Below, piece after piece: positions 4,095 through 26,917 of a stretch of DNA of 64,000 bases. Source of the stretch: Natronomonas salsuginis. GTDB lineage: Archaea; Halobacteriota; Halobacteria; Halobacteriales; Haloarculaceae. The stretch is from positions 62,001 through 126,000 of the forward strand of contig NZ_QKNX01000005.1 in assembly GCF_005239135.1 (NCBI RefSeq), in the 5' to 3' direction. Numbering within the stretch: position 1 is the stretch's first letter; every line of letters starts with the position of its first letter. Under the pieces are notes generated by a model, which saw nothing but the letters and a program-made list of their open reading frames with translations, did not search any database and was not told the origin of the DNA. The position numbers and the translations under genes are program-made.

Positions 4095-6592
4095 ATGACT
4101 GGCAACTGTGACTTGTGTGGTCGTGTGATTCAATCTTCCACATTTGAGACTGTTAGTGAGCGGTCATTCTGTTCAAGTGGGTGCCACGAGGTGTACACGA
4201 CGCTTGGAGCTCCCGATTCCCTCGATACCACCCAGACAACTGAGAACGGGATCGATCAAGAGGAAGACGCGGTTCCTACTGATCAGCATCGTTCTCGGAC
4301 GTTTCTCCGGATCGATGGAATGTACTCCGCGACGTGTGAGGCGTATCTTGAATCTCTCGCCGAGAAACAAGAGGGAGTGACCAGTGCCGAGGCGAGTTAC
4401 GTCACGGAGACGATCCGAGTTGAACACGATCCAAACACTGCTTCGAAGGAATCGTTGCGCGAGGTGTTGAGCACTCTGGGGTACACGGCGTATCTCCGTG
4501 AGGATGCCTCATCAGACGTGGGAGAGGCCGGTGGCACGACACGTCGATCACGGGAGATGGGTGGGATTCGAAAGCGTCGAGACGACCAGCTCTTGGGAAT
4601 GCGATACTCCGTTGGGTTCCTCTTCGGTGCGTTTCTGTTGGTCCCATACGTTGCGATCCTCTATCCAGCGCAGCTCGCGTCGATTTTCGACTGGCAAGTG
4701 CTCGAAATATTTGAGGGCGCATTTCGGTTAGACAGCCAAGGGGCATTCGTATTCCTCCGACTGTATTTCGTGATGACTGGTATCATTCTCATCTTTACCG
4801 GTCTGCCAGTGTTGCGTGGCGCGTATATCAGTCTCAAAATGCGGCGCCCGAACACCGATCTGTTGGTCGCGCTCACCGCCATCAGCGCGTACGCGTACAG
4901 TACGGCTGCCGTTATCCTCGGGCAAAACGACATTTTCTATGATCTCGCGATCATCGTCACGGCCGCGGTTACCGCGATGGTATTCTACGAATCGTCAATC
5001 AAACAGCGGGCACTTGATCGTCTCACCGAGCTCACCATATCACAGGTCGAGAGTGCACGAACGTACGACTCGGACGGAGAGACTGAGGAAGTTCGCGTGG
5101 AGAATCTCAATACAGGGGATGTCGTGCTCGTTCGACAGGGCGAACGTGTTCCAATAGACGGTGAACTGGTTGAAGACAGCTGTACCGTCGACGAAGCGAT
5201 CGTGACAGGTGAATCGCTTCCGGTGCTCAAACGCGCCGGAGACGACGTGATCGGGGGGTCGATCGTGACGGACGGTGCAGCGTTGGTCCGTGTCGGCCCA
5301 GACGTAACGAGTAGTATCGACCGGATAACGACCGCCGTCTGGGACCTACAGAGCGCGACTCACGGCGTCCAACGCCACGCCGACCAACTCGCGTCGTACG
5401 CCGTCTTCCTCGTCGTCGGAGCCGCTGTCGCGGTCGGCGGCGTCGGTGTACTCGCATTCGGGATTGGCCTGCCAGATGCCGTCCTCCTCGCGCTGTTGAT
5501 CATCCTTGCCGGCTCGCCGTGGGCCCTCGGACTTGCGACGCCCCTGTCGGTCGCGAAGAGCCTCTCCAGTGCGCTCCGGCGCGGGATCATCATCTTCGAC
5601 GAAACAGTCTTCGAACGGCTCCGCGACGTCGATATCGTCGTCTTCGATAAGACGGGGACACTCACAACCGGAGAGATGGAGGTGATCGAAGCGGACGCGC
5701 CTCCCGAGTTACTCGACGCCGTCGCCGCCCTCGAACAACGGGCGTCACACCCCGCTGCGAACGCTATCACGACGGCGTTCGCGGGCAGTGACGATGGCGA
5801 CGCCGCAGCGGCTCAGCCGGACTCGGGAGATGACCCGGTCGGAACGGAAGGCGTCGGTCAGATACGCGAGTTCACGAACCATCGGTCCGGTATCGAAGGC
5901 GTGATCGGCGACACGTCGTACCTCGTCGGGAACCTCGATCTATTCGCAGAACAGGGGTGGACCGTTAACGACGACATCCGGTCTCGGGTCGCCGACGCTC
6001 AGGGATTCGGACAGCTTCCGGTCGTGATCGGTCGTGACGGGACAGCAGAGGGGCTGATCGTCGTCGGGGACGAGCCGCGAGACGGCTGGGATGACACCGT
6101 CTCTCGGCTTGGGGAGCGGGGCACGGAGATCGTCGTCCTGACCGGCGACGACGAGGAGGCGACGGACTTCTTCAAGCGACACGACGCCGTGACGCACGTC
6201 TTTGCGACGGTTCCGCCGGAGGGGAAGACGGCGACGATCCGGCGGCTCAAATCTGATGGGGAGGTCGCGATGGTCGGTGACGGTACCAACGAGCCCCGGC
6301 GCTCGCCGCTGCCGACCTCGGCATCTCACTGGGCGGCGGTACGGCATTAGCCGCCGCCGCCGCCGATATCGCGATCGTCGACAACGACATCCGCTCCGTC
6401 GAAACCGCCTTCGACCTCGCGGGGGCGGCTCGCCGTCGGGTGAAACAGAACAACCTCCTCGCGTTCTCCTACAACGGTATCGCGCTCGCGGCGTTGGCCG
6501 TCGGCTTCTTCAATCCGCTGACGGCAGCGGCCGCGGTCATTGCCAGTGGTGGGTTGCTCGCCGTAAACACTCGACGGAAACTCCTCGGGTAG
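4095..6592 (+). pseudogene. SPW-motif heavy-metal P1B ATPase, copy A (frameshifted)
   Basis: Membrane P1B-family ATPase, broken by one frameshift. Order: Cys-rich TRASH/YHS-like finger (C5, C8, C26, C30); HMA-like domain with GMYSATC (S78, C81), one of two CxxC cysteines lost; transmembrane segments; TGES actuator; TM6 motif S474-P475-W476 instead of CPC; DKTGT (D518); SHP; GDGTN. At about 6290 one C of GACGCC is missing, so the frame runs out at 6350. The homologous C-terminus continues in another frame to the stop at 6592, including YNG and ASGG where copper pumps have YN and MSS. It is closely related to 20940-23429. The break could be a true mutation or a one-base sequencing error. Substrate is unclear because most Cu(I) ligands are gone. 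Confidence 0.85.
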
Positions 6593-6755
6593 CGAGGTAC
6601 GGTCGCCGACGGAACTCGGATCCGAATCGCCCTACTGACGTGGAAGAGTGGCCATCTATTATTCGGACATCGTCGATCCAATCGGTGCGGTCGTCACCCG
6701 GCTCCGACTCACTTCTGTTTCTAAAGGACTATTCTTGTCCAGACACTACCACAAC

Positions 6756-6942
6756 CATGGAATTCGACTTCACACGTTCGGTGGTTCCGCTTGCCGTGAT
6801 CGTCGCCGTCGCAACGGTCGCGCTAACCGCCGTGATGGCACCCTCGACCGTTTTTATGATGGTTCTCCCCTCGATGATCGCGTTCTCGGTGGTCGCGTAC
6901 TTCCTCGGGATGAAACACGGCGAATTCCGCGGTAGTCCGTAG
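6756..6942 (+). CDS. Small two-helix membrane protein (DUF7333-like)
   Basis: A 62-residue protein from the ATG at 6756. Two hydrophobic helices (about residues 9-27 and 31-50) separate a short N-terminus from a KHGEF tail. It resembles small haloarchaeal membrane proteins of the DUF7333 type; function unknown. It lies between the ATPase and the convergent membrane protein gene. No equivalent is present in copy B, where those two genes are only 70 bases apart. Confidence 0.6.
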
Positions 6943-7087
6943 CGCCCCTGTCCGGCACCGCCCCCAAAGTCACAGTGTCACTCCACCTAAAGCGTCCTAA
7001 TTCAGTTACCACCACCGGTGGTCCGCACTTCGTGTTCAACAGGCTCGATGAGCGATCAGCAGCCGAGAATCGACGAGGCCGGGATGT

Positions 7088-8290
7088 TTACTCGGTGACT
7101 CCCGCACTGAGCTCAGACACGTCTTTCCGGACGGGTGTCGAGGAGTCGATCGAATACACGAGCGTTCCGGTGAACAGTGCGATGCTCCCTAACAGGAATA
7201 TCGAATTGAGCGGCGACGCCGAATCGACGAAGATCCAGTATATCGGCGCCGCAATTGTTGGGCCGGCTGCGATGACGGCGACTTGGGAGACGAGGGGGCC
7301 ACAACACCCACACGTACACGCACCGACGACCGTCGCCGTCCCGGCCGTACTCTGTGTCGCTCCCGCCTGCTGATCGAGACGCCACGAGTGAGCGACGGCG
7401 GCCGCGTTCAACCCCACGAGGACGCCGAGGAGTCCGAGCACGATGACCACGCCGGGAGAGATCGCGATGAAAAACGGAACGTCGGGGAGCAGAACCTCAA
7501 GGGTGGGCCATCGCACGATCTGATACAGTACGTTCAGGACCGCCACGGTCGTCTCCTGCGGAGCGCCCTCTTCACTGAAGAAAGATAGGTATCCCGTCGT
7601 CGCCATAAAGAAGAGGCTCACCATGGCTCCGACGCTGAATCCGAACCGACGCGCCACCGGATCCCGAAGGATCGTCGACAGTGCCGTGCCAACGTCTTTC
7701 CAGAGGATGTAGCCGACGAGCAGCGGCGTCGCGAGGACGATTCCGTACCCGATCGGGTTGGTGTAGCCGCTGAATCCGGGCAGCAGATACGGGTACAGTA
7801 TCCAGCCGCCGAGCAGCATGCCGAGAGCCATGTACCGTGGACGTGTCGTCCATCGCACGAGTCCGGTCAGGAAACTCGCGACCACGACTACCAAGCCGGT
7901 TCCGATCGCGAGCGGCTGGTACCACGACCGCGGGAACGGCATCGAGTCCGCACGATACGCCGGATCCGGGGCCAGACCCTCGAAGAGGATTGCGCCGCCG
8001 ACAGTAATTCCGATACCGACCGCAATCCCGTACAGAGCGGTTCTCGGCGAGATCCGCCTCCTCCGCTTGAGGAGGACGAGCGCACCGATCGAGAGGACGC
8101 CGATACCAGCGATCGCTAGCCCGTGCGACTGTGAGAGTCCCGACGACTCAGCGCTACCGTGGGCGGAAACTGTTGGGATTAGCGAAAGGAGACAGATCCC
8201 GACAGCAATCAGGACGAATAGACGGAGCGACCTTCGTCGAGGTCTGGGTCTGTCAGCATCAGCGTTCCCTTTCAGGCCTTTCTGAGTCAT
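7088..8290 (-). CDS. Polytopic membrane protein with CTCGCC motif, copy A
   Basis: 400 residues, with a basic N-terminus, a hydrophobic segment ending in VSAHG, and about nine further membrane segments. Near the C-terminus is a striking cysteine cluster, GAC-TCGCCGPLVSQ, with Cys at 325, 327, 329 and 330, followed by another hydrophobic segment. I do not know a characterised homologue. The copy at 23500-24696 has the same motif. Both are convergent with an SPW-type P1B ATPase, suggesting a shared metal-handling role; the cysteines could bind a soft metal (inference). Confidence 0.75.
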   Translation of the reverse strand: MTQKGLKGNADADRPRPRRRSLRLFVLIAVGICLLSLIPTVSAHGSAESSGLSQSHGLAIAGIGVLSIGALVLLKRRRRISPRTALYGIAVGIGITVGGAILFEGLAPDPAYRADSMPFPRSWYQPLAIGTGLVVVVASFLTGLVRWTTRPRYMALGMLLGGWILYPYLLPGFSGYTNPIGYGIVLATPLLVGYILWKDVGTALSTILRDPVARRFGFSVGAMVSLFFMATTGYLSFFSEEGAPQETTVAVLNVLYQIVRWPTLEVLLPDVPFFIAISPGVVIVLGLLGVLVGLNAAAVAHSWRLDQQAGATQSTAGTATVVGACTCGCCGPLVSQVAVIAAGPTIAAPIYWIFVDSASPLNSIFLLGSIALFTGTLVYSIDSSTPVRKDVSELSAGVTE

Positions 8291-9010
8291 CGCGAGGGCT
8301 TAGAGACTCACACACAATTATCTGTCTCTCTCGTCCCCCCCGAGACGTACTGCCTGACCACCCCGAGAGTCTGCACACGCGTGGAACCGTCCTGTAGAGT
8401 CTCGACCAGAACGGTTCAGAAGTGCGTATCTGATCGCGTCAGTTCGGTTCGTAGCCGGCGTACTCCATGAGCTGACTGAAGATGTCCGAGTCCATGACGG
8501 AGCGGTACACCCCGCCGGTAAGCATGCCGCCGGGGTAGAATGACCCGTTCATCACGTGGTTGACCTTGTGGCAGTGCATGAGGTAGATCTCGGGGTCCGC
8601 GTCGGCCGTGAACTCGATCGTGTGCCGTTCCGCGGGGGCGATGTTCGTGACGTCGATGTCGTGTCTGGCGGCTTCCGGAACGACCCCGCCGTCCTTTTCG
8701 ACGCGCTGGAAGCGGTGGTTGTGGATATGCATCGGGTGCGACATGTATCTCCCGTTGACGAGGTGAATACGGACCTGATCGCCCTGATCGACGATGATCG
8801 GTGACCCTTGTTCGGGGTGGAGCGTCCGGGGTGCTCTCTTCCCGTTAACGGTGAAGACGTCTGGATTGCGTGAGGCCGTGTTGTACGTGAAGTCCGCTTC
8901 ACCAGCCCACTTCTTCGGGCTCCGCGAGTCCCAGTCTTTGATCGTCATGAAGTACTCCCGGTCCGCCGGTTCGTAGCCCTCGGGATCGACCCGGAAGATC
9001 CCGTACATCC

Positions 9011-10259
9011 GGCTCTGTTGAAATCCTTAGGAACTGGTAGGACCGGCGTGCGAGATACAGAGGCTGTATCTATCAACGACTCTTGATTCGCGTCAGCTCC
9101 CCCGTTACAGCCCGACGAAGCGATAGTGTAACTGGTAGCGAAGGGTGTTAGGCTCGTCCCCACGAACCCTTGTCCGAATGGACGCTAAGGAGTGGCTCCG
9201 TCGGCACCAAGTCCTCGTGTACGCAGTTGCCGTCGCGCTGGCGGTGGTCATCGGAGTGGGCCGTCCGATGTGGGCCACGCCCATCGAAGGACTCATCAAC
9301 CCCGTGCTGGCCGTCCTGCTGTACGTCACGTTCCTCGAAATCCCGTTTGTGCGGCTCCGCCGGGCGTTCACGAACGGGCGGTTCATCGGAGCGGCCCTCG
9401 GGCTGAACTTCCTCGTTGTGCCGGTCGTGGTGTGGGGACTCACCCGAGTCCTCCCGTCCGACCGAGTCGTCCTCGTCGGTGTCCTGATGGTACTACTGAC
9501 GCCGTGCATCGACTACGTCATCACTTTCACCGACCTCGCGGACGGCGACGCCGAACAGCTCACCGCGACGACACCGGCGCTGATGCTGGTACAACTGCTC
9601 CTGCTCCCGGTGTACCTGTGGCTGTTCGTCGGCCCGGAGATTGCGGCGGTCATCGAGGCAGGCCCGTTCATCGAGGCGTTCGTGCTGATCATCGCGCTGC
9701 CGCTGGGGCTGGCGTGGCTCACCGAGGCCGGTGCGGAGCGCTCCGGGCGGGTCGCGGGGTGGCAGGAGACGCTGGGGTGGTTTCCCGTGCCGATGATGGG
9801 CGTAACACTGTTCGTCGTCATCGCCTCGCAACTCCCGCGTGTACAGAACGCCTTCGATCAGATTGTAGTGGTCGTGCCGGTCTACGTCGCGTTTCTGTTC
9901 GTCATGCCGTTGCTCGGGCGATTGGTGAGCGGCCTGTTCGGGATGGACGTTGGCGAGCGGCGGGCACTGGTGTTCACGTCCGTGACACGGAACTCGCTGG
10001 TCGTCTTGCCGCTGGGGCTTGCGCTGCCAGCGGGTTACGAGTTGGTGCCGGCTATCATCGTGACGCAGACGCTGGTCGAGTTGAGCGGGATGGTGGTACT
10101 CACGCGAGTCGTGCCGGCGGTACTAGTTCCGGCTCCGCCGGCTGACGACAGCCAGCCCACTATACCGAGTGGTGAGTGATTCCCGGCGGTGGCCGATTCG
10201 CGCTCTATATTCAGCACAGCTGCAAAAACATATCACCTGCTGAGGATTTCAACAGAGCC
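9011..10259. mobile_element. Mobile insertion cassette carrying acr3
   Basis: 1,249 bases bounded by inverted repeats beginning GGCTCTGTTGAAATCC (16 perfect bases, then partial match). Flanked by the direct repeat GTACATCC at 9003-9010 and 10260-10267, an 8-base target duplication. It contains only the acr3 gene, with no transposase. Its ends share GGCTCTGTTGAA with the transposase-bearing arsC element at 39161-40795, which may mobilise it in trans. Confidence 0.9.
9178..10179 (+). CDS. acr3: Arsenite permease, ACR3/bile acid:Na+ symporter superfamily
   Basis: 333 residues from the ATG at 9178 (an upstream in-frame start at 9145 is less likely). About ten hydrophobic helices, with the superfamily signature TPCIDYVITFTDLADGD after helix 4, where ACR3 proteins have a conserved Cys; SVTRNSLVVLPL near the C-terminus matches the second conserved region. 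Predicted to expel As(III) across the membrane using ion gradients. It is the sole cargo of the cassette 9011-10259 and complements the arsC gene carried by the related element at 39161. Confidence 0.85.
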   Translation: MDAKEWLRRHQVLVYAVAVALAVVIGVGRPMWATPIEGLINPVLAVLLYVTFLEIPFVRLRRAFTNGRFIGAALGLNFLVVPVVVWGLTRVLPSDRVVLVGVLMVLLTPCIDYVITFTDLADGDAEQLTATTPALMLVQLLLLPVYLWLFVGPEIAAVIEAGPFIEAFVLIIALPLGLAWLTEAGAERSGRVAGWQETLGWFPVPMMGVTLFVVIASQLPRVQNAFDQIVVVVPVYVAFLFVMPLLGRLVSGLFGMDVGERRALVFTSVTRNSLVVLPLGLALPAGYELVPAIIVTQTLVELSGMVVLTRVVPAVLVPAPPADDSQPTIPSGE

Positions 10260-11018
10260 GTACATCCCCATATCGATGTGGCGGTGGGTCTGGAGGTGGC
10301 AGTGATACAGGTGCGTCCCCGGAACGTTCGCCGGAATCTCATAGGTGTGCTTCTCGCCCGCGGGAACTTTGATCCCGGTCAACGTCGGGACGCCGTCGTT
10401 TTTCCACGTCTTCGTGACACCGTGGAAGTGGATCGTGTGCGGTCTACGCCCGTTCGTGTTGTCGAGCGTCACTTCCATGTCGTTACCTTCGGTCGTACGG
10501 AGGATCGGGCCTGGAACGCTCGGATCGTTGTCGTCGACCTGCCACGCCCAGACACGCGGCAACTCAACTGGACCACCCATTGAATCGAGCGGGTGGACGG
10601 CGTGTCGTGCCGGCTGCGTCCCCATCGTCACAGAGCCTCCCTGCTCGTCGACGTTGACCACCGTCGGAGGACTGGTGTAGGGAAGGTCAGACGGTGTCGT
10701 CTGGGCTTCACTCGGTGTGCCAGTAGCTGCTGTCGGCGCGTTAATTATTTTTGATGAACAGCCCGCCAACGCTGATACGCCCGTCACGCCGGTCGCAGCA
10801 AGAAATTCTCGCCGGGACAGTCCGGTTCCGGGGGCACCGAAAGGTGTCGTCATGGTTCATTCGACACATTGGGCTGTCGCGATAAACGAGGACTGCAGAA
10901 CCCCTATTTTTGAGAAGGCAAGCGAATATGTTCGACAACAGTCGGACGGGTTTCACAAGCAAAACTAAGGGTTTGCTGTCGAAAGAACTGAGATCTGAGA
11001 CCCACAGATAGCAAACAG

Positions 11019-11747
11019 TTACATTCCACCTGTTGCCGTCAGATACGCGCTCGTGAATTGAATCGCATTGTACGCACCGTGAATCAGAGCCGGAACAACG
11101 AGGTTATCGGTGTACTCGTAGGTCGCACCGAGTACCAGAGCTAGTACGAATGCGATACCGACGTACACGAGCTTCCCTTCTCCACTCAACGAGAAGAGAT
11201 GGATCGACGCGAAGAGGGCGCTCGCAAGAACGATTGCACGGGTTGGATGTAACGTTTCTCGGAGCGTTCCCTGAACCAGTCCTCGGTATAACAGCTCTTC
11301 GCCCGGACCGACTAGCAGAAACGATAGAGGAATGAGAATTAGAAAAGCTATCGGATTTTGCTGACCAACTGTTACTACTTGGTTTTCTGCTGATTCCAGT
11401 CCGAGCGAGGAGATAACGCGTGATGAGACAATGAGTAATCCGAGGAGTGTACCTACCCCCCCGATGGTTACAGCAACATCTCACCTGTCCGGAATCGAAA
11501 GCGAAACGAATTCGAAGTCGAGATCTCGGAATCTGAGATAGAGGATTGAGAGCCCTCCGAATGTCACCCCCTGTAACAAGATCGTGCTCATTACGAGGCG
11601 CAACGATGGACGAGCGGTTACATCGACCCCGAATGCGCCCAGCAGTGCGGCAACGATGGTGACAATTACCGACCCAATAACCGTTGAGCCGTACGTGAGC
11701 CCAACTGCACTCCCGACAGACTGAATCCGTGTCGTTATTTCTGTCAT
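11019..11747 (-). pseudogene. CPBP-family intramembrane protein, copy A (nonsense)
   Basis: Start ATG at 11747, 7 bases after the CDF gene ends, so probably in an operon with it. The frame is stopped by TGA at 11481-11483 where the paralogue at 26918-27646 has CGA (Arg); beyond it the same frame continues to 11019. The downstream part carries the CPBP motifs GEELLYRGLVQ, SALFASIHLFS and IHGAYNAIQF. The CPBP family includes Rce1-type CAAX proteases and bacteriocin-immunity-like proteins; substrate here is unknown. Confidence 0.8.
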
Positions 11748-11754
11748 TTGAAAA

Positions 11755-12690: not shown

Positions 12691-12740
12691 ACGTTTTGAT
12701 CTGATAAATTCGTAATGTCCGGTATTACGACTCTCAAGCG

Positions 12741-15371
12741 TCAGTTGTTCTCTGTCTCCGGTTCGACGCGAGAGAGTCGCATTGCGTTCCCGGTCACGGC
12801 CATCGTCATCCCCGCGTCGCCGGCGAGGACGGCGAGCCAGATGGGGACGTACCCGAACGGAACCGCGAGAGCAAGTCCGGCTTTGACACCGAGGCTGGCC
12901 CAGATATTCTGCCGGATGACGCCGTTTGCGTCGTTCGCGAGCTCGTAGAGATACGGGAGCTTTGCGAGGTCGTCACCCATCAGCGCGATGTCGGCCGTCT
13001 CCAACGCGGTGTCCGTCCCGGCCGCGCCCATCGCAATACCCACCGTTGCCGTCGCGAGCGCCGGGGCGTCGTTGATCCCATCACCGACCATCGCGACGCC
13101 CTCGTGTTCCTCGATGAGCTCCTCGACGGCAGCCACTTTCTCGTCGGGGAGCAGTTCTGCCCGGTACTCGTCGACTCCGACTTGGTCGGCGATCGCGCGA
13201 GCAGTTCGCTCGTTGTCGCCGGTCAGCATGACCGTCCGTGAGACGCCGAGATCTCTGAGTCGAGCGATCGTTCGCGCTGCTTCGGGACGGATCTCGTCGG
13301 CCACGGCGACGATACCTTCAAGTTCGTCTTCAGTGCCGACGAGGATGACCGTCTTCCCTTCCGATTGAAGCTTCGGAACCGTCTCTTCGAGCAGATCGAG
13401 GCAGTTGTTCCGGTCACAGATCTGCCGGGCAGTCTGCCTGACGACACCCCCGTCGGTCGTCGCATGGACGTGTGAGAGATCGAAACCTAACTCCTCGAAC
13501 AGCCCCGGCTTCCCGGCGAAGTGCGGCGTGCCGCCGAGATCGGCACGCACTCCCTTTCCGGTGATGCTTTCGAAGTCATCGATATCGCGCTCGTCGACCC
13601 CCATACTGCCGGCTTCAGCGACGATTGCCTCGCCGATGGGATGTTCGCTCCGCTGTTCGAGCCCACGCGCACACCGGAGGACATCTTCTTCGGAATTTTC
13701 GTTCAGTGGAACGACGTCGGTGACGGTGAGCTCCCCTTTCGTGAGCGTCCCGGTCTTGTCGAACGCGACGACGTCGACGCTCCCCATCGCTTCGAGGTGG
13801 TTGCCGCCCTTGATCAGGACCCCGTTCTTAGCAGCGCTCGTGATCCCCGACACCACGGAGACGGGCGTCGAGATGACGAACGCACACGGACAGGCGAGTA
13901 CGAGGAGCGTCAGCCCATAAACGACGGCCGTGGGCCACGTGATTCCAAGGACGTACGGGCTCCCCACTGTCGTCAGGATGGCGAAGGCAACGACGACCGG
14001 CGTGTAGTATGCCGAGAAGCGCTCGACGAACTGCTCACGCTCGGTCTTGTTTGACTGAGCGTCTTCGACCATCTCCACGATACGCGAGAGCGTGTTATCG
14101 CCGGCCTCGGAGGTAACCTCCACCTCGAGATACCCCTCTTCGTTGATCGTACCGGCGTACACCTCGTCTCCCATCGCCTTATCGACGGGCACGCTTTCGC
14201 CCGTGATGGGCGCCTGATTGACTGCGCTTTCACCGTCGACGACGGTCCCGTCGAGTGGGATCTTCTCGCCCGGCTTCACGACGACGACGTCACCGACAGC
14301 GACCTCGTCGACTGGAACCGTCTCCGTACTACTGTCTCGCTTGACGGTCGCTTCGTCCGGCGAGAGGTCCATCAACTCCCGGAGCGAGTTCCGGGCGCGA
14401 TCCATCGAGTACCGCTCCAGCAGTTCAGCAACGCTAAACAGGAACGCGAGGGTGGCGGCCTCGAAGTAAAGCGCTTCACCGAAGGCGAGGCTCGCGACCA
14501 GCGCCCCGAGGATAGCCACCGACATCAAAAAGTCGATATCGAGGTTCAGATTCCGCGCCGAGTAGTAGCCGTTGCGAAGGATCTCTTGACCCCCGAAGGC
14601 GACGGCGACAAGGAACAGTCCGTCGGCAACGAACAGCTCTGTGCCGAGAAGGCTCGCAATCTGTCCGTTCTGCCCAGTGAGGAAGAATTCAAGGAGCAAA
14701 CCGAGAGCAACGAACCCACCGCTGATCCACGTCTTGAGTGCCCGCGGACTCACCCAGATGCTCTCGCGTTCCTCGGTCGCGTTCTGACCTTCGGACTCGT
14801 CGCTCGAACTGTCTGTAACCTCGTATCCAGCACGTTCGATAGCACTGATTATCTCGGCTTCTCCGGCCTCCGAAGAATCGTACGTGACAACGACGGTTCC
14901 GTTCGTTGGCCGGGTTTTATACGCTGTGACTCCAGCTTTGTCGAGTGACTTTTCGATCTTCCCCGCACACGAGGGGCAGTCCATCTCGGGAACCGTAAAT
15001 TTCGTCGTTATCTCGTCGACGTCTTCGATGGTGTATCCCGCCTTTTCGACCCGATCAGCTATCTCGGTAGCGCTGGTTTGCTCGCTGTCGTATGAGACTG
15101 TCAACGTTCCCGTCGTCACTTGCGGGTCGATGCTGTTGATCCCGTCCAGTTTTTCGACGCTGTTCTCAACTTTTCCTGCACACGAGGGACAGTCCATCTC
15201 CGGAACCGAGAGCTGTGCAACATTCCCTTGCCCGTGTGGTGGGGAGGTGTCATCGACATCCCTTGTATGCTGAGTGGACTCGTGACTATGCTGAGATCCC
15301 TCTTCGTGCGTGTGGGTTCGATTCGGTGGTTCGCCACGTTTGTCGTGGGAATCATCGTCAGGTGGGGTCAT
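12741..15371 (-). CDS. zntA: ZntA-like P1B-2 ATPase (Zn/Cd/Pb), copy A
   Basis: 876 residues with a His-rich start (HTHEEGSQHSHE). Two HMA domains follow, each with MDCPSCAGK (residues about 58-66 and 127-135). After the transmembrane core come PITGES, CPCAFVISTP (C494), DKTGTLTKGE, SEHPIGEA and VGDGINDAPAL, ending with GDAGMTMAVTGNAMRL, where P1B-2 pumps carry the Asp that binds Zn(II). The DCPSC form of the HMA motif and the final Asp favour Zn/Cd/Pb over Cu. It stands first in a probable zntA-CDF-CPBP operon. A TATA-like element about 25-33 bases before the ATG suggests a leaderless transcript. Confidence 0.92.
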   Translation of the reverse strand: MTPPDDDSHDKRGEPPNRTHTHEEGSQHSHESTQHTRDVDDTSPPHGQGNVAQLSVPEMDCPSCAGKVENSVEKLDGINSIDPQVTTGTLTVSYDSEQTSATEIADRVEKAGYTIEDVDEITTKFTVPEMDCPSCAGKIEKSLDKAGVTAYKTRPTNGTVVVTYDSSEAGEAEIISAIERAGYEVTDSSSDESEGQNATEERESIWVSPRALKTWISGGFVALGLLLEFFLTGQNGQIASLLGTELFVADGLFLVAVAFGGQEILRNGYYSARNLNLDIDFLMSVAILGALVASLAFGEALYFEAATLAFLFSVAELLERYSMDRARNSLRELMDLSPDEATVKRDSSTETVPVDEVAVGDVVVVKPGEKIPLDGTVVDGESAVNQAPITGESVPVDKAMGDEVYAGTINEEGYLEVEVTSEAGDNTLSRIVEMVEDAQSNKTEREQFVERFSAYYTPVVVAFAILTTVGSPYVLGITWPTAVVYGLTLLVLACPCAFVISTPVSVVSGITSAAKNGVLIKGGNHLEAMGSVDVVAFDKTGTLTKGELTVTDVVPLNENSEEDVLRCARGLEQRSEHPIGEAIVAEAGSMGVDERDIDDFESITGKGVRADLGGTPHFAGKPGLFEELGFDLSHVHATTDGGVVRQTARQICDRNNCLDLLEETVPKLQSEGKTVILVGTEDELEGIVAVADEIRPEAARTIARLRDLGVSRTVMLTGDNERTARAIADQVGVDEYRAELLPDEKVAAVEELIEEHEGVAMVGDGINDAPALATATVGIAMGAAGTDTALETADIALMGDDLAKLPYLYELANDANGVIRQNIWASLGVKAGLALAVPFGYVPIWLAVLAGDAGMTMAVTGNAMRLSRVEPETENN

Positions 15372-15393
15372 TACTCGCCGCTTGCCGCTACAG

Positions 15394-15404
15394 ATTTATT
15401 AAAT
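15394..15404 (-). promoter_or_regulatory. TATA element of zntA copy A
   Basis: The minus strand reads TTTAATAAATC 23-33 bases upstream of the ATG at 15371, the spacing expected for a leaderless haloarchaeal transcript. Copy B has a matching element at 33193-33201. Confidence 0.5.
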
Positions 15405-15480
15405 CTACTGCGAAAAATGCCCCCTATTATGTTAAATATTAATAAATACTATGTATTTGATTATTAACATTCCCGTTAGA

Positions 15481-15903: not shown

Positions 15904-15927
15904 TGGAACAGAGATGGGTGGTGCCTA

Positions 15928-16171
15928 TCAGAGCGCCACGAAGAGGTCGGTCACGTACATCACGCCGAGGCCGAGCAGGAACGCAAGCAGGTTCGTGGCG
16001 CTGGCCACGCGACCGCCTGCATCCCGAACCATTCCCGCGATCTCCCAGTTGACCTGTAAGATTGCGCCAACCCCGATCGCGAGGAAGAAGGCGCCGATCG
16101 TTGGTGAATAGGCGAGACTGCCGATCCAGCCACCGAGAATGACGGGTGCGCCGGCGATGACGCCGATCGCG
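15928..16171 (-). pseudogene. ZIP-like metal transporter, C-terminal fragment, copy A
   Basis: The C-terminal portion of a ZIP-like transporter (GVIAGAPVILGGWIGS to YVTDLFVAL) is nearly identical to the end of the intact gene at 35449-36705. DNA identity stops abruptly at about 16171, and what follows is the broken arsenite permease on the other strand. This marks the right edge of duplicate copy A and a recombination junction. Confidence 0.88.
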
Positions 16172-17061
16172 GACTCATTTATTCTCCCGTTTCTGATGGT
16201 TATGCTCCTCGCTGCGTTCACGGGAATCCCGCTATCTCGACTTCGCGCTGCCTTTGGGAACCGACGCGTCATGGGTCCAGTCTCCTCGTCAACTTTCTCT
16301 GGAGTCCTTTGTTGGCCGTCGGGCTTGGCGCCGTCTTCCTCCGCGAGTACCCGGCGCTGTGGGTCGGGCTCATTATGCTGATGGTCACCCCGTGTACAGA
16401 CTGGTACCTGTTATTCACTGACATCGCAGGCGGAGATGTGCCGCTCGCCACCTCGCTGTTGCCGTACAATCTCGTGTTACAGCTCGTACTATTGCCTGTG
16501 TATCTGTACGTCTTTGCGGGGACGCTCGTTGAGTTACCGACGGCGCTGCTGGTAGAGAGCGTCGTGCTCGTGTTGGTCGTTCCGCTCACGCTTGGGGGCG
16601 TGACTCGATCGGGACTGATCCAGTGGCGGAGCCAACAGTGGTTCAACAGGCGCTTTCTTCCGAAGATGAGTCCGCTACAGATCGTGTTTCTGAACCTCGC
16701 TATCGGGGCGATGTTCGCCTCGCAAGGCGGGGTTATCGTCGAGAACCCCCGACTGCTCGCACTGATGGCAATCCCCGTAATTGCATTTTACGCGATTAAC
16801 CTCGGTGTGGGATTCGCTGTCGGCCGCGTGCTCGACTTCTCGTACGAGGAACTCTTGTGTTTCAATAACACCATCCTCTCGCGGAACTCACCGACCGCGC
16901 TCGGAATCGCCGTAGTCGCGTTTCCGAATGAGCCGCTCATTCCGTTTGTGCTGGTGATCGGCCCGCTCTTGGAACTTCCCCTACTGGGGATAATCGCCCA
17001 AGTACACGTGGCGATTAGCGACCGTGGATGGTGGCTGCGTACGTCCGAGGACACTGCATAG
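16172..17061 (+). pseudogene. Truncated, frameshifted arsenite permease (ACR3 superfamily)
   Basis: The first helices are missing, and the sequence starts at the junction with the ZIP fragment. The stretch FLMVMLLAAFTGIPLSRLRA aligns with the intact permease at 9178. A frameshift near 16275 follows, then an open frame from 16309 with TPCTDWYLLFTDIAGGD and NTILSRNSPTALG down to 17061. The 250-residue remainder contains most of the transport core, but loss of the N-terminus makes function unlikely. It is distinct in sequence from the cassette-borne acr3. Confidence 0.8.
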
Positions 17062-17639
17062 ATGTACCATCAACCAACACGATCTCCACCACAAAGAGTG
17101 ACTAATTGTAACTCGTAGTATGTGTCTGCCAAAGCGTGACTCATTGAATGTTCAGGGTTTGATACCTGCTGTCGATCGGATGCGTAGTGGGTGTGGTTTC
17201 GTCCGTGAAAGTATCTTCTTGCAGGGGTACTACATTTTTATCGAAGAGTATTGCAGGTCTCTTCTTGTTTGAAACAGCGATCTATTTAGTCGAAATAGCA
17301 TGGTTATCGACCCAATTTACATCAGTCTCCCAGCAGACTAAAACAAATTGTTGCGTCCCGGGTTCACTTCTCTCCAACCATCTCACCGGGTACCTGCGTC
17401 CATGCCACCCATTCACGCAAGCGCGGTCTCAGCAGCCAATTCAATGAAATAAGGCAAGACGAATATTGTTCGAGCGGTGAACCAGAACGGTTTCAATGTT
17501 GGGCACGGTACCACCTACTAACAGCCCGATCTTATGTCACACAAGGTAACAGCAATACTACAGATCGAACACAGATATAACGATTCGGGACAGCATAGTC
17601 ATAACACACCTCTATCTGACCACGACAATCTATCTTGAC
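17062..17639. other. Intergenic, no gene seen
   Basis: Open stretches here lack any recognisable domain or start context. The last 100 bases would hold the copA promoter. Confidence 0.5.
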
Positions 17640-20102
17640 ATGACGCGAACTGACGACTCCTGTAAACTTTGCGATCTCCCGGTTGCCGAGACGGGAGTTG
17701 CCGATTCCGACGGCTGCACCTTCTGTTGTCGAGGATGCCGCGACGTATATGATGCCCTGGGAGATCTCGAGGATATCGATACTGAGGCTGTTCGACGCCA
17801 GAAAGCGGCTGACAACTCTAAAGAATGGACAGTCCCTGACGACCATGAGAGCACATTCCTCGAAATCGAGGGGATGTACTGTGCGACCTGCGAGGCGTTC
17901 ATTGAGTCTGCCGCGACGACGATCGACGGCGTGAGCGGTGCCGAAGCGAGCTACCTCACCGAGACCACACGGATCGACCACGACCCTGAGGTAGTCACAT
18001 GCGAGGAACTCTGCGAAACGGTGTCGGGGTTCGGGTACTCAGCGTACCCTCGCGACGATGCTTTCCGACAACGACAAGCCGACAACAGGGCATTCGCTCG
18101 GATGGCTGTCGGTGTTCTCTTTGGGATGATGGTGATGCTCCAGTACATCGTTATTATATACCCAACGTACTTCGGCGGGCTCTTCTACGATGAACGAATG
18201 GTGCATTTCCTCGAAGAGATGATGGCTGGATCTGGTGCAAACTACTTTTTCATTGTAATTGCCGTCCTCACGACGCTTGTGCTGTTGATCACCGGGAAGC
18301 CGATTCTCCGAGGTGCGTATGTTAGCGTCCGTACCCGTTCGCCGAACATGGATCTCCTCGTGGCGATCGCCGCAGTAAGTGCGTACCTTTACAGCACGGT
18401 TACGCTTCTCAACGGCGGTACACATGTCTACTATGATGTCACGGTCGCCATCGTTGTCATTGTCACAGTTGGCAACTACCATGAATCGTCGATCAAACGA
18501 CGTGCGACGGATCTCCTTTCGGACCTCACGACCGTGCAAGTGGACCACGCTCGCCGTCTGGAGAACGATGCTTATGAGGAAGTACCTATCGAGGAACTAT
18601 CCGGTGACGACCAGGTATTGGTTCGGGAGGGTGAACGAGTCCCGGTCGACGGTTGCGTTGTTGAAGGACGGGCTTCGGTCGATGAAGCGGTTGTGACCGG
18701 TGAATCACTCCCTGTCCACAAGACGCCAAGTGACGAGGTCGTGGGCGGATCGGTCGTCGAAGATGGTGCAGTAGCCATCTCCGTCGACGAGGACCCAACC
18801 AACACGCTCGATCGTATCGAGAACCTCGTTTGGAATCTGCAGAGTTCCGCACACGGTATCCAGAAATTAGCTGATAAGCTCGCGACGATCTTCGTTCCGT
18901 TAGTGCTCGTCCTCGCGGTCGTCGTCACCACCGCGTACCTCTCGTTCGGAGCCTCCATCGCAACTGCTCTGCTCATCGGGTTGACCGTCCTTATCGTCTC
19001 CTGTCCGTGCGCGCTGGGATTGGCGACGCCGCTGGCGGTTGCATCCGGGATTAAAGAAGCTCTCGAACGAAATATCGTCGTCTTCGATGACACGGTTTTC
19101 GAGCGGCTTCGAGGGGCTGATACGGTTGTCTTCGACAAGACAGGAACGATCACCACAGGGGATTTTGAGGTTGTTCGAACGGAAGCTCCGGACGAACTGC
19201 TGGCCGCGGCCGCCAGACTCGAGGCGAAGTCTGGCCATCCAGTCGCGGCCGCGATTGCAAAACTGGACCGGGCCGCTACCGACGGCGGTATCACGGACGA
19301 CAGTCGGAACAAAGAAGTGGATCTCAAGGAAGTCGAACCGTTCACTGCGAACGCGCCTGTCGAGGGAGTCGAGGCATTTGAGAGCCACGCAAAGGGCGTC
19401 TCGGGAATCGTTGATGGAACCCGTCTCCTTGTCGGACATCCGGACCTATTCGCTGACGAAGGCTGGGACGTTCCCACAGATATCGACACGCAGGCTTCTG
19501 AAGAGCGGGAGTGTGGTAATATGCCGATTCTCGTTGGACGCGAGGGTGCTACGGAGGGGTTCGTCGTCCTCGGAGATACAGTTCGAGAGGAGTGGGAAGA
19601 GACTGTGCGATCGCTCAGCCAGCAGGATATCGACGTGGTCGTGCTGACTGGCGACGACAGCCGCGTGGCCGACCATTTCCATGAACACAACCATATTGAC
19701 CGGGTTTTCACTGGCGTACCGCCGGAAGGGAAAGCTGAGACGGTAGCGCGGTTGACATCCGATGGCCAAACGGTAATGGTTGGCGACGGGACGAACGACG
19801 CACCGGCGCTGGTGCAGGCCGATCTCGGAATCGCCCTCGGTGGGGGAACGGCGATGGCCATCGACGCCGCGGACATCGCTATTGTCGATGACGACCTCCG
19901 GTCGGTAGCCACCGTGTTCGAGCTTTCGACCGCGGCCGGTAGACGGGTGAAAGAAAACATCGGCTGGGCGTTCTGTTACAACGCTATCGCCATCCCATTG
20001 GCTATCACCGGCTTGCTCAATCCGCTGTTTGCAGCGGCTGCGATGGCAATGAGCAGTATCCTCGTCGTGACTAATTCCTCACGATCGCTATTATCGGAAT
20101 AG
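17640..20102 (+). CDS. copA: Canonical copper-exporting P1B-1 ATPase
   Basis: 820 residues. Order: TRASH-like Cys-rich finger (C8, C11, CTFCCRGC); HMA domain with the intact GMYCATC; transmembrane core; TGES; C455-P456-C457; DKTGTITTGD (D499); SGHP; GDGTNDAPAL; YN in TM7; MAMSS in TM8. All classical Cu(I) ligands (CPC, YN, MSS) are present, so this should export Cu(I). It shares its domain plan with the two SPW ATPases flanking it (4095 and 20940), which have lost those residues. It stands alone between the two duplicated blocks. Confidence 0.93.
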   Translation: MTRTDDSCKLCDLPVAETGVADSDGCTFCCRGCRDVYDALGDLEDIDTEAVRRQKAADNSKEWTVPDDHESTFLEIEGMYCATCEAFIESAATTIDGVSGAEASYLTETTRIDHDPEVVTCEELCETVSGFGYSAYPRDDAFRQRQADNRAFARMAVGVLFGMMVMLQYIVIIYPTYFGGLFYDERMVHFLEEMMAGSGANYFFIVIAVLTTLVLLITGKPILRGAYVSVRTRSPNMDLLVAIAAVSAYLYSTVTLLNGGTHVYYDVTVAIVVIVTVGNYHESSIKRRATDLLSDLTTVQVDHARRLENDAYEEVPIEELSGDDQVLVREGERVPVDGCVVEGRASVDEAVVTGESLPVHKTPSDEVVGGSVVEDGAVAISVDEDPTNTLDRIENLVWNLQSSAHGIQKLADKLATIFVPLVLVLAVVVTTAYLSFGASIATALLIGLTVLIVSCPCALGLATPLAVASGIKEALERNIVVFDDTVFERLRGADTVVFDKTGTITTGDFEVVRTEAPDELLAAAARLEAKSGHPVAAAIAKLDRAATDGGITDDSRNKEVDLKEVEPFTANAPVEGVEAFESHAKGVSGIVDGTRLLVGHPDLFADEGWDVPTDIDTQASEERECGNMPILVGREGATEGFVVLGDTVREEWEETVRSLSQQDIDVVVLTGDDSRVADHFHEHNHIDRVFTGVPPEGKAETVARLTSDGQTVMVGDGTNDAPALVQADLGIALGGGTAMAIDAADIAIVDDDLRSVATVFELSTAAGRRVKENIGWAFCYNAIAIPLAITGLLNPLFAAAAMAMSSILVVTNSSRSLLSE

Positions 20103-20309
20103 CCGCCCGAACCATCGTTGATCGACTGGTAGTGGTCGATACAAACTATTCTTGAAGAGACTGCCCTTGATCGCTTGGTTCCCGGTTGAGAGCCCAATAC
20201 TATCGAGATTAAAGTAATATCATGCGAGCATATAATGTATCTTGTTCACCCCCCTCACAAGTATTAATGAATAGAACTTCAAGAAATCCAAACGAGAATA
20301 TTGAGGGAA

Positions 20310-20710
20310 GGTTCTGTTGAATTCCTCACAGGCTGACTGAGTGCAAGATACCGGGAACTCACTTATCGGTCAGTACAGGCTGTTCACGAATCATTCGGTA
20401 CAGGCTGTTCACGAATCATTCGGTACAGGGGATTCACGGAACAGTCTCTAATCGGCATCACACAAATAGCTCTTTCTAATTGAAACGAAGGGGCTGAGGC
20501 GCTCCCGTCTATTCGCAGCAACGGGCCGGGGGGATAGCAGCGGCGGACTGCTATCAGCGGTAAATGCTGAGCATGTCCCCGGCATCCTAGACAACTATTC
20601 TCATGTTGCATAAAGTTTGAGGCCAGTCAACTAATCGAACAGTATGCAGGCTTCGGCGAACAGTTGTTTCAGACGAGAATATGTCTGAAGAATATGATTT
20701 CAACAGAGCA
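20310..20710. mobile_element. MITE-like relic related to the arsC insertion element
   Basis: The left end GGTTCTGTTGAATTCC and the inverted right end TGCTCTGTTGAAATCA resemble the ends of the acr3 and arsC elements. Flanks TGAGGGAA (20302-20309) and TGGGGGAG (20711-20718) match at six of eight bases, as expected for a decayed 8-base duplication. Inside the right end, the inverted sequence TTCTTCAGACATATTCTCGT matches the left end of the arsC element (39177 onward) closely. No coding sequence remains. Confidence 0.7.
20375..20440. repeat. 25-base tandem repeat, about 2.5 units
   Basis: Units beginning ACAGGCTGTTCACGAATCAT start at 20375 and 20400, with a degenerate third from 20425. They lie within the relic insertion element. 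Confidence 0.8.
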
Positions 20711-20939
20711 TGGGGGAGTAAAAAGGTGCCAAATAATATTAGATATGCTATCTGATGCAATAGAACGATACTCTAATTAAACTCCTTCTCTATACACAAA
20801 CTGTGTGCTTAACAATCTGGACCTCAAGTGCTACTCTTGGACTATTCTCTTCGACATGAAAACACTCCCAAGTGGACTCACCAAATATTTTGCTTCCTGT
20901 CAAGCCTTGTGGAAACAAGCGTGTATGTACTGATCTACC

Positions 20940-23429
20940 ATGTCATTTGATGAATGCTATCTATGTGGCCGCAAGTTTCAATCATCCGTAGTCGAAACCA
21001 AATCCGAGATACAATTCTGTTCGACCGGCTGTCATGATGTTCATACAACGCTCGGTGATGAGACTTCTAGCGAAACTATCGAGTCGAAAGAGAAAGATAC
21101 TCATGAATCCTTGGGGGAGGGAATCGACCAGACGTTTTTTCGGATTGATGGAATGTATTCTGCGACGTGTGAAGTTTTTCTCGAATCGCGTGCCGAAAAG
21201 CAAGAAGGAGTGGTTGATGCTGAGGCGAGCTATGTGACTGAAACGATACGTGTGATACACGAGAGTGACCACGTTTCGAAGGATGAACTTCGCGACACAT
21301 TGAGTACGCTCGGCTATACGGCGTATCTTCGCGAACACGCCTCTAAAAACGCTCAAGAGTCGACGAGCACGACACGCCGATCACGGGAGATAGATGGAAT
21401 ACGAAAACGTCGGGATGATCAGCTTCTCGATTTCCGGTATGCCGCTGGACTCCTTTTTGGCGCGTTCCTGATGGTTCCGTACGTCGCGATCATGTATCCA
21501 ATCCATCTTGCTTCCATTCTTGATTGGGAAGCCCTCCATCTCTTCGAAGATACATTCCAGATGAGTGGTCAGGGAGGACTCATCTTTCTGCGGATTTACT
21601 TCGTGTTAACCGGTGTTATTCTCTTTTTCACCGGGCTACCTGTGCTACGTGGCGCGTTCATCAGTCTGAAGATGCGGCGGCCGAACACAGACCTGCTCGT
21701 AGCAATAACCGTACTGAGTGCCTATGTCTACGGTACTGTCGCGGTCCTCCTCGGTCGAAATGATTTATTTTTCGATCTTACCATCGTTGTCGCTGCAGCT
21801 GTAACCGCCGTAGCGTTCTATGAGTCATCGGTCAAACAGCGTGCGCTGAACCGCCTCACGGAACTTACGGTTTCTCAGGTCGATACTGCACGGGTATACG
21901 CCCCAGACGGAACGACGAATGAGGTTGGAATTGAGGAACTCACATCGAATGATCTCGTACTTGCCCGCCAAGGCGAACGGATTCCGGTTGACGGTGAACT
22001 CGCCGAAAGTAGTTGTTCTGTCGATGAGGCAGTCATCACAGGAGAATCTCTTCCGGTGTTGAAGCAGGCGGGTGATAACGTCATCGGTGGGTCGATTGTC
22101 ACGGACGGTGCGGCTCTGATTCAGGTCGGAGAGAACGCAACGAGTAGCATCGACCGAATTACGACTGCTGTCTGGGATTTACAGAGTGCCACGCACTCCG
22201 TCCAACGTCACGCCGACCGGCTCGCATCACGGGCTATAGGGCTGGTTGGCGGTGCGGCTGTCGTAGTGGGTGGCGGTGCGGCAACGATACTCGATATGAG
22301 TGTTGTGAATGCTTTCCTCCTATTTTTGCTAGTCCTTCTCGTTGGATCACCATGGGCACTTGGGTTCGCTACACCGCTTTCAGTGGCAACGAGTCTTGAA
22401 GAGGCGCTCAGACGGGGAATAGTCGTTTTCGACGAAACGGTCTTTGAACGTCTTCGGGATATTGACATCGTTGTCTTCGACAAAACGGGGACCCTTACGA
22501 CTGGGGAGATGGACGTGATCGAGACAGACGCACCACCAGAGTTACTAGAGGCCGTCGCAGAATTAGAGCGGCGGGCGTCTCACCCCGCTGCAAGTGCCAT
22601 CGTGTCGGCGTTCGCTCGTGAGAGTAATGCTTCTGATTCACTGCGTTCGGATGGGGGTGTAATCGACGAAGACAAAGAGAAAGATACTGGCCGTGTAAGC
22701 GAATTCACTAGTCATAGATCCGGAGTCGAAGGAGTGATCGACGGAACGAAACTCCTGGTCGGTAATCCCGATCTATTTATTCAGCAGGGCTGGATGGTAA
22801 GCGACGACATCGAATCGCGCGTCGCTGAGGCCCGGGGCTTCGGACGACTTCCGGTCATCATCGGGCGCGACGGAGCCGCGGAGGGGATTATTATCGTAGG
22901 CGATGAGCCCCGAGACGGATGGGATGGTACGATTCGCCGTCTTGGAGAGCGGGGAACTGAAGTCGTCATACTAACCGGTGACGACGAGGAGGCTACCGAC
23001 TTCTTCAAACGTCATAAAGACGTTACGCACGTATTCGCGGGTGTTCCCCCGGAGGGGAAAACTGCAACGATTCGACGACTTAAATCGGGTGGACAGGTCG
23101 CGATGGTCGGTGACGGAACGAACGATGCACCGGCACTTGCGACGGCCGACCTCGGGATCTCATTAGGGAGTGGTACAGCGTTGGCAGCGGACGCGGCCGA
23201 TATTGCGATCGTCGACGACGAAATTAGTTCCGTCGAAACGGCGTTCGATTTGGCGAAGGCAGCGAATCATCGCGTTAAACAAAACAATATCGGCGCTCTT
23301 CTTTATAACGGAATCGCGATCTTGGCTGTGGCTGTCGGATTCTTTAATCCACTCACGGCAGCTGTAGCCGTAGTCGCCTGTGGTGGTCTAATCGTAGCCA
23401 ACTGCCAGCGAGAGTTAGCGAAATCATAA
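20940..23429 (+). CDS. SPW-motif heavy-metal P1B ATPase, copy B (intact)
   Basis: 829 residues, uninterrupted. Order: TRASH-like finger (CYLCGR...CSTGCHDV); HMA-like domain with GMYSATC; membrane core; ITGES; S470-P471-W472 in place of CPC; DKTGTLTTGE (D514); ASHP; GDGTNDAPAL; LYNG; and a TM8 segment ACGG instead of MSS. The ATPase machinery is complete, but Cu(I) ligands in TM6, TM8 and the HMA domain are changed, in the same way as in copy A. A shift of substrate or a regulatory role is inferred. Its base composition is more AT-rich than copy A. The next gene, 70 bases away on the opposite strand, encodes the CTCGCC membrane protein. Confidence 0.88.
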   Translation: MSFDECYLCGRKFQSSVVETKSEIQFCSTGCHDVHTTLGDETSSETIESKEKDTHESLGEGIDQTFFRIDGMYSATCEVFLESRAEKQEGVVDAEASYVTETIRVIHESDHVSKDELRDTLSTLGYTAYLREHASKNAQESTSTTRRSREIDGIRKRRDDQLLDFRYAAGLLFGAFLMVPYVAIMYPIHLASILDWEALHLFEDTFQMSGQGGLIFLRIYFVLTGVILFFTGLPVLRGAFISLKMRRPNTDLLVAITVLSAYVYGTVAVLLGRNDLFFDLTIVVAAAVTAVAFYESSVKQRALNRLTELTVSQVDTARVYAPDGTTNEVGIEELTSNDLVLARQGERIPVDGELAESSCSVDEAVITGESLPVLKQAGDNVIGGSIVTDGAALIQVGENATSSIDRITTAVWDLQSATHSVQRHADRLASRAIGLVGGAAVVVGGGAATILDMSVVNAFLLFLLVLLVGSPWALGFATPLSVATSLEEALRRGIVVFDETVFERLRDIDIVVFDKTGTLTTGEMDVIETDAPPELLEAVAELERRASHPAASAIVSAFARESNASDSLRSDGGVIDEDKEKDTGRVSEFTSHRSGVEGVIDGTKLLVGNPDLFIQQGWMVSDDIESRVAEARGFGRLPVIIGRDGAAEGIIIVGDEPRDGWDGTIRRLGERGTEVVILTGDDEEATDFFKRHKDVTHVFAGVPPEGKTATIRRLKSGGQVAMVGDGTNDAPALATADLGISLGSGTALAADAADIAIVDDEISSVETAFDLAKAANHRVKQNNIGALLYNGIAILAVAVGFFNPLTAAVAVVACGGLIVANCQRELAKS

Positions 23430-26650: not shown

Positions 26651-26917
26651 GATACATTCGGTGATTGGCATAGCCCCATCATAGGGAGACGGCGGAGTCC
26701 CAATTCGCGGGAGAGCGCGTGTATATGTTCGGGAAAAGCTAGATAGGTCTTGAAGACAAACTATACATCTTGCTGGTCCCATGAACAACATATTTGACAT
26801 TTAGAAGAACCACTCTCTTTACAGGTTTGGCGGATCCGATATGAAACTGGCTTCTCGATAAATCTATAGACTTGAAGGGGGTTTGAATCCGATAATCAGG
26901 GTGGAGATTGACGACTT

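Follow-up and report, generated by a model that had tools for sequence, protein, structure and literature searches.

A haloarchaeal clade of P1B-type ATPases with Pro-Trp in place of the CPC motif of Cu(I) pumps

The window analysed here, a stretch of 64,000 nucleotides from the haloarchaeon Natronomonas salsuginis, holds three related P1B-type ATPase genes. Two of them, copies A and B, read Ser-Pro-Trp at the metal site of transmembrane helix 6 (TM6), and a paralogue lying between them keeps CPC (Table 1). Recomputed positions confirmed what an earlier note on this DNA had read from it: copies A and B have GMYSATC in the HMA domain (at residues 75 and 71, respectively) and ASGG or ACGG (the latter at residue 813 of copy B) in TM8, and the paralogue has CPC, GMYCATC and MSS. 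TGES, DKTGT and HP lie at residues 371, 518 and 552 of copy A and at 367, 514 and 548 of copy B, where GDGTNDAP follows at 724; copy B therefore has the full set of P1B catalytic motifs (TGES, DKTGT, HP and GDGxNDxP), three of which the note had already called intact, and in copy A the set is broken at GDGTND. Copy B also keeps Y789-N790, with T250 at the position of the entry Met and V811, C814 and G815 at those of MxxSS. The CPC relatives of the genome are on contigs C2 and C3 and in the window, and the three are 48, 48 and 41% identical to copy B. Against the P1B model TIGR01525 (cut-off, 346.25 bits), copy B scores 392.1 bits and the third SPW gene of the genome, on contig C6, 379 bits. 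Against the copper model TIGR01511 (cut-off, 397 bits), copy B fails with 327.1 bits; the CPC paralogue of the window passes both. An AF2 model of copy B (pLDDT 63, pTM 0.42) was too poor for site geometry.

Table 1 Positions of the ATPase genes, their signature segments and neighbouring genes
Feature	Position	Strand	Basis or remark
PW ATPase copy A, S474-P475-W476, broken	4095..6592	+	frame and motif reading
PW ATPase copy B, intact, 829 aa, S470-P471-W472	20940..23429	+	motif reading, alignment
CPC paralogue, Cu(I)-type, 820 aa, comparison gene	17640..20102	+	CPC, GMYCATC, YN, MSS, entry Met
HMA-domain segment IDGMYSATCE, copy B	21144..21173	+	CxxC: Cys1 is Ser, Cys2 kept
S470-P471-W472 codons, copy B	22347..22355	+	
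Third SPW gene of the genome, intact (L002)	C6:168241-170790		other contig
Membrane protein, 398 aa, convergent with copy B	23500..24696	-	CTCGCCGP
Membrane protein homologue, 400 aa, beside copy A	7088..8290	-	same family as 23500..24696
Multicopper oxidase, module B	24809..26800	-	
P1B-2 (ZntA-like) ATPase, module A	12741..15371	-	ACPCAF

Copy A carries a frameshift near position 6288, inside the GDGTNDAP motif between GDGTND and AP, so that the frame from its ATG ends at 6350; the remainder of the gene, ASGG included, can be read in another frame from 6290. It also has Ala at the equivalent of D751 of copy B, where Asp is found in 51 of the 51 clade rows with a letter. Taken together, the frameshift and the missing Asp, otherwise invariant, point to decay rather than to a read error alone. 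Over 731 codons copy A is 98% identical to a gene of Halorubrum salipaludis, and in the tree described below it nests among Halorubrum genes, with copy B branching deeper. The two copies are not a recent duplicate pair, and the idea that the SPW form was kept through a duplication in this genome falls with that result, as the copies differ in origin and one of them is broken.

Both copies stand at the head of colinear modules (A, 4095-15371; B, 20940-32877) that each contain a PW ATPase, a membrane protein of 398 or 400 residues, a multicopper oxidase, a CDF protein and a P1B-2 ATPase. The modules are 73-83% identical in five 300-base stretches and, given the 98% identity of the module A ATPase to that of H. 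salipaludis, were probably acquired separately. The multicopper oxidase of module A is in two pieces (8439-9008 and 10233-10853, both on the minus strand), between which a gene resembling bile-acid:sodium symporters, and named by that resemblance only, lies on the plus strand (9145-10179); on plasmid pNG600, both pieces match inside one annotated gene. In module B, the P1B-2 ATPase (30496-33168, minus strand) has an in-frame TAA and is open only over 30496-32877, and the CDF gene (29790-30458) is shorter than its module A counterpart. Elsewhere, three named plasmid regions combine PW genes with varying sets of azurin, DsbA/DsbB, CAAX protease, and SCO or CcdA genes. At Natrialbaceae loci the recurrent neighbours that could be identified, the others being without annotation, are YCF48-like, DCC1-like, ATP-grasp and LMF1-like genes, with no metal genes among them. 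Copper/zinc resistance modules are thus the setting of one mobile part of the clade, and the setting alone does not tell function.

Two neighbours were considered as partners of the PW ATPases and rejected. The 398/400-residue membrane protein, whose CTCGCCGP is invariant in 18 aligned rows of its family, matched no family in Pfam or NCBIfam and no sequence in the PDB, and a PDB fold search using its model (pLDDT 67) gave no hit at E 0.001. Among 382 haloarchaeal genomes, 85 have a member of its family, frequently inside metal modules. It was found at no fewer than 21 of 63 PW loci (60 haloarchaeal, two bacterial and the C6 locus), an undercount owing to short flanks. It was not found in the loci searched in Natrinema, Natrialba and Natronorubrum, and is present in Saliphagus (L058). 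Of 20 regions around the membrane protein gene, picked mostly for distance from a PW pattern match, 19 have no PW ATPase in the fetched flanks and one (L203) does. An obligatory partnership is therefore rejected, as the protein was not found at many PW loci and occurs apart from PW genes. At 14 of 40 loci, the first or second gene upstream of the PW ATPase (position -1 or -2) encodes a YCF48-like propeller (PF14870) in the same orientation; examples are L077, L081, L086, L092 and L143. Two of the 14 repeat a gene already counted, taken from another source, and L146, among the 40, was skipped. The family is present in 175 of 373 genomes, and a PW-specific association was likewise rejected.

The distribution of such ATPases was surveyed with a degenerate DNA pattern for [S/C/T]PWA[L/F]G..AT-P type stretches, which misses other PW motifs. 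Across 84,980 species it matched 67 stretches: 60 haloarchaeal P-type ATPase frames, two bacterial CPW ATPases and five short unrelated frames that were dropped from the counts (L049, L051, L071, L094 and L101). Eighteen of the haloarchaeal frames run off the end of the fetched locus; among the 42 uncut ones, 39 reach at least 750 residues, and the other three (L055, L069 and L100) are short and perhaps broken. Among whole haloarchaeal genomes, a narrower pattern occurs in 38 of 391 and a looser one, which may take in some other genes, in 96 of 382; the reversed control pattern occurs in 4 of 382, which places the matches above chance. Named records with a PW gene include Halorubrum, Haloarcula, Natrinema, Natrialba, Halobaculum and other genera. 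Many members of the window's subclade are on plasmids, and some clade members are in records titled chromosome. Four CPW loci from Halosegnis, Haloarcula and Halorussus (L045, L062, L068 and L074) do not differ from one another in identity values or sites, a likeness across genera that suggests recent transfer. The two bacterial CPW ATPases, L059 and L095, share 28% identity with copy B and have retained both the entry Met and M..SS. L059, from Desulfobulbus alkaliphilus, is P1B-like with DKTGI instead of DKTGT in a frame without GDGxND, and is possibly an inactive pump with an independently gained Trp.

For the phylogeny, seven rows (duplicates or other P1B types) were removed before alignment, then identical proteins (119 to 111 rows), then short rows and rows at least 95% identical to another (111 to 99). 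The resulting tree comprises 57 PW, 40 CPC and two bacterial CPW rows, with the ligand columns left out; a distant CPC row, L136_2, was excluded from CPC counts. All 57 haloarchaeal PW rows lie together beyond one branch (SH-aLRT 100), with the CPC row L123 nearest to them, followed by the CPC type of the window. A second tree, inferred under a mixture model from 51 thinned rows (24 PW and 27 CPC, without outgroup) and restricted to 439 columns of the cytosolic HMA, A, P and N domains to exclude an effect of the membrane columns, again separated the PW rows from the CPC rows by a single branch (100/99), as did 100% of 200 bootstrap trees. The haloarchaeal proteins are therefore one clade relative to the CPC paralogues. 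What had been proposed as an SPW lineage holds up as a lineage, though its mark is [S/C/T]PW and not SPW alone: the first position of the TM6 motif is Ser in 43 of the 57 rows, Cys in 10 and Thr in 4. Its third position is Trp in all 57 rows. As a Trp-containing pattern was the source of most of them, this count is in part built in; the 12 PW tree rows found through similarity alone also have Trp in every case.

The order in which ligands disappeared can be read from the number of changes that the 99-row tree requires. Trp needs two (one for the PW clade, one for the bacterial outgroup rows), loss of the entry Met one and loss of the M6 Met one, which makes Trp and both Met losses founding changes on the stem of the clade. 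The first CPC Cys needs six changes, the HMA Cys three and the third N-terminal Cys four. The coordinated loss of ligands suggested earlier is borne out in that several are lost and that Trp and the loss of the M6 Met fall together on the stem, where the loss of the entry Met, absent from the note's list, is a third change; the HMA Cys and the first CPC Cys went later and repeatedly, with only three independent pairs bearing on their co-evolution. SPW with SxxC is the later, commoner state of the clade, and SxxC does not serve as the clade mark it was proposed to be, as five of the 51 rows with a letter have Cys there. The idea that the CPW rows acquired their HMA domain from CPC genes found no support, the HMA domains of those rows being closer to those of PW rows.

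Both CPC cysteines are absent in 47 of the 57 PW rows. At the entry position 55 rows have Thr (50), Val (3), Ser (1) or Ala (1), and at the M6 Met position the 50 rows with a letter have Val (43), Leu (3), Thr (2) or Ala (2), so that Met is found in 0 of 55 and 0 of 50; both Met are present in 39 of 39 haloarchaeal CPC paralogues, all of which also have Cys at the third motif position and SS. No PW row was seen to combine SPW with intact Cu(I) ligands, and CPW with the Met ligands and M..SS occurs in the two bacterial ATPases outside the clade. The first HMA cysteine is kept in 5 of the 51 rows with a letter and the second in 50. The catalytic motifs are retained (DKTGT in 55 of 55, HP in 56 of 56 and GDGTNDAP in 50 of 51 rows with letters; TGES in 51 of 57, with TGEA in five and TGEN in one), as are YN (48 of 50, FN in two), M2 Glu295 (56 of 56) and, mostly, Asp426 (53 of 57). 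N-terminal C6, C9, C27 and C31 are invariant in 21 aligned rows. The sites conserved differently between CPC and PW rows include the gain of Trp, losses of Met, Cys and Trp, and a few exchanges of small or aliphatic residues. Further PW-specific conserved sites are Ser replacing Ala at 481 and 741, Thr257 and, in the A domain, Cys359 (57 of 57 rows; Ala or Gly in CPC rows). The same comparison revealed no newly conserved charged residue in M4-M6 of the PW proteins.

Estimates of dN/dS indicate purifying selection. Sixteen PW pairs gave NG86 values of 0.09-0.39, the highest of which (0.392 and 0.380) became 0.138 and 0.215 under YN00; the 15 PW pairs that computed under YN00 ranged from 0.08 to 0.26, and six CPC pairs gave NG86 values of 0.11-0.31. 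Rates along the protein were compared as amino-acid distances relative to the P domain in pairs with a P-domain distance of 0.15-0.40 (1213 PW, 409 CPC and 410 ZntA-type pairs, not independent of one another), with a column bootstrap and with the ZntA-type (P1B-2) family of the module A ATPase as control. The A domain behaves alike in PW, CPC and ZntA-type proteins (1.21, 1.21 and 1.23). In M3-M4 the ratios are 1.75 (95% range, 1.41-2.19), 0.97 (0.72-1.24) and 1.08 (0.76-1.52), in M5-M6 they are 1.63 (1.29-2.01), 0.89 (0.64-1.18) and 1.26 (0.89-1.70), and in M1-M2 they are 1.56, 1.10 and 1.17. Relative to the P domain, M3-M6 of the PW proteins thus evolves about 1.8 times faster than in CPC pumps; for M3-M4 and M5-M6 the PW and CPC ranges do not overlap, and since the PW and ZntA-type ranges do, the shift is clear only against CPC. 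Maximum-likelihood partition rates, again relative to the P domain, agree in direction, with 2.16, 1.08 and 1.19 for M3-M4, 1.38, 0.73 and 0.94 for M5-M6, and 1.13, 1.06 and 1.09 for the A domain in the same order. By this measure PW proteins are also faster than CPC in the N domain (3.30 versus 2.03) and MA-MB (1.63 versus 0.99), an acceleration not clearly visible in the distances, and similar in the HMA domain (1.34 versus 1.43). PW pairs are less well conserved (0.60-0.68) than CPC pairs (0.34-0.54) around the N-terminal Cys cluster. The rates suggest that the engine has been conserved and that, compared with CPC pumps, the ion route has shed much of the additional constraint on it.

In AfCopA the residues expected to bind with high affinity are CPC, Y682, N683, M711, S714 and S715, the entry site is formed by M158 and the CPC cysteines, and mutants in CPC (C380, C382), YN or MxxSS are impaired in Cu+ binding (PMC9433437). 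Read against these mutants, the ligand changes suggest that the membrane route for Cu(I) is probably gone. As the ATP-burning machinery is kept and most of the known copper-holding residues are lost, PW proteins probably have a function other than pumping copper. We favour, at about even confidence for the account as a whole, a cycling pump of Cu(I)-pump descent whose cargo has no need of thiol or thioether ligands. The trees show that the clade arose once from Cu(I)-type P1B pumps, with the second CPC Cys becoming Trp and the entry and M6 Met lost on the stem; motif conservation and dN/dS show that selection continued to act on the catalytic motifs and on each gene as a whole. On the favoured account the protein would still run an ATP-driven E1/E2 cycle, with Ser/Thr/Cys470, Trp472, Tyr789 and Asn790 as a candidate looser cargo site. 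One part of the clade spread inside copper/zinc resistance modules. A new substrate or a non-transport role, as the earlier note had envisaged, accords with the loss of Cu(I) ligands beside intact catalytic motifs, although a simple swap to another metal is disfavoured by the rate shift in M3-M6 and by the lack of a new conserved set of ligands or charges in M4-M6.

The faster M3-M4 and M5-M6 segments and the absence of new charge in M4-M6 fit a protein without cargo equally well and count against the favoured account. In such a protein the pump part would be vestigial, and the whole would work as an ATP-driven switch or sensor, with the N-terminal Cys cluster and the HMA domain sensing metal. 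The excess of M1-M6 distances over those of CPC pumps would agree with this, as would an A domain ratio equal across groups, an HMA rate near that of CPC pumps, and the retained C6, C9, C27, C31, second HMA Cys and Cys359. We nevertheless regard a non-transport role as unlikely, although it deserves serious weight: the membrane core keeps an invariant Pro-Trp and a nearly invariant YN, the Cys cluster stretch is less conserved than in CPC proteins, and phosphorylation of P-type ATPases normally requires bound cargo. For these reasons, of invariance and of a normally cargo-gated cycle, a cargo free of soft ligands stands slightly ahead of no cargo.

The place of the window's subclade among copper/zinc genes also counts against the favoured account, for it could mean that copper service continues. 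Trp makes a cation-pi contact in the periplasmic protein CusF, and a PW protein might still export Cu(I) or Ag(I) through such a contact together with Ser/Cys and Tyr/Asn. The multicopper oxidase, P1B-2 ATPase and CDF protein of the modules, the azurin, DsbA/B, SCO or CcdA genes of the three plasmid regions, the first Cys kept in 10 of 57 rows and the retained Glu295 and, mostly, Asp426, which are proposed CopA uptake residues, speak for it. Yet both Met are gone, as are both CPC cysteines in most rows, the recurrent neighbours identified in the partially annotated Natrialbaceae loci are not metal genes, the genome of the window has CPC paralogues as well, and Cu+ binding in AfCopA needs CPC and MxxSS (PMC9433437). 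Retained Cu(I) transport through Cys and Trp contacts, above all in the CPW rows, is accordingly less likely, and we consider copper or silver export in general improbable. Far less probable still are decaying pseudo-pumps hitch-hiking on resistance islands. Copy A is broken, three uncut frames are short and many subclade members are on plasmids, but dN/dS is low, 39 of the 42 uncut frames reach at least 750 residues, catalytic motifs persist across the deep clade and some members are in records titled chromosome. Scattered decayed genes do not fit this picture, copy A and perhaps the three short frames apart; the data argue against decay and show a lineage that was founded once, is under selection and lacks most of the known Cu(I) route.

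Substrate, sequence similarity and the metal-binding residues of the membrane domain distinguish the P1B subclasses, and the TM6 signatures given for them in one source, CPC, CPH, SPC and PCP, each contain Cys (PMC4932525). The PW proteins may form a P-type class derived from copper pumps in which membrane metal coordination is gone, moving a non-metal or hydrophobic cargo past Pro-Trp or running a signalling cycle, a wider proposal that we make tentatively and at somewhat less than even confidence. If so, the clade would be, to our knowledge, the first P1B branch to leave metal transport. Present by pattern in about a quarter of the sampled haloarchaeal genomes, it offers a natural test of how far cargo binding can be separated from the ATP cycle, and current gene names (cation or heavy metal translocating P-type ATPase) may mislead on haloarchaeal copper handling.

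A literature search for SPW or CPW P1B ATPases, which required a second term and lay mostly outside subscription papers, found no description, so that a prior one is possible. Among known systems, the P-type subunit KdpB depends on a partner for its cargo selectivity. PW proteins would resemble it if a partner membrane protein held their cargo, and the candidate partner beside copy B is missing from the searched loci of three genera (Natrinema, Natrialba and Natronorubrum) and elsewhere occurs apart from PW genes. P1B-4 ATPases have an SPC motif, and most PW members share its initial Ser; they differ in having Trp, not Cys, at the third position (SPW in the window) and in branching from CPC haloarchaeal pumps. 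Co, Cd and Zn are the P1B-4 substrates in a review table (PMC7558416). P1B-2 Zn/Cd/Pb ATPases have, besides CPC, a Lys in TM7 and an Asp in TM8 (PMC4932525); the PW rows have no CPC, and no Lys or Asp in the TM7 and TM8 stretches compared. The N-terminal Cys cluster before the HMA domain we take as a likeness to ATPases of the CopA2/FixI/CcoI type. For P0001, however, the only Pfam matches at E 0.001 were E1-E2_ATPase, Hydrolase and HMA, without PF12156, which we take to be the N-terminal FixI-type domain, and the Cys clusters of P0001 and P0002 had no Pfam match. The PW clade further differs from this type, whose members are Cu(I) ATPases (PMC7558416), in the loss of its Cu(I) ligands. The closest likeness is to the P1B-1 pumps AfCopA and LpCopA, with which PW proteins share domain order, the HMA domain, TGES, DKTGT, HP, GDGTNDAP and YN in M5 (TM7). 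They depart from P1B-1 in having [S/C/T]PW for CPC in TM6, no MxxSS in TM8, no entry Met (AfCopA M158) or M6 Met, a first HMA Cys that is mostly lost and faster M3-M6 segments. Their nearest relatives in this analysis are the haloarchaeal CPC paralogues, exemplified by the one that lies between copies A and B in the window.
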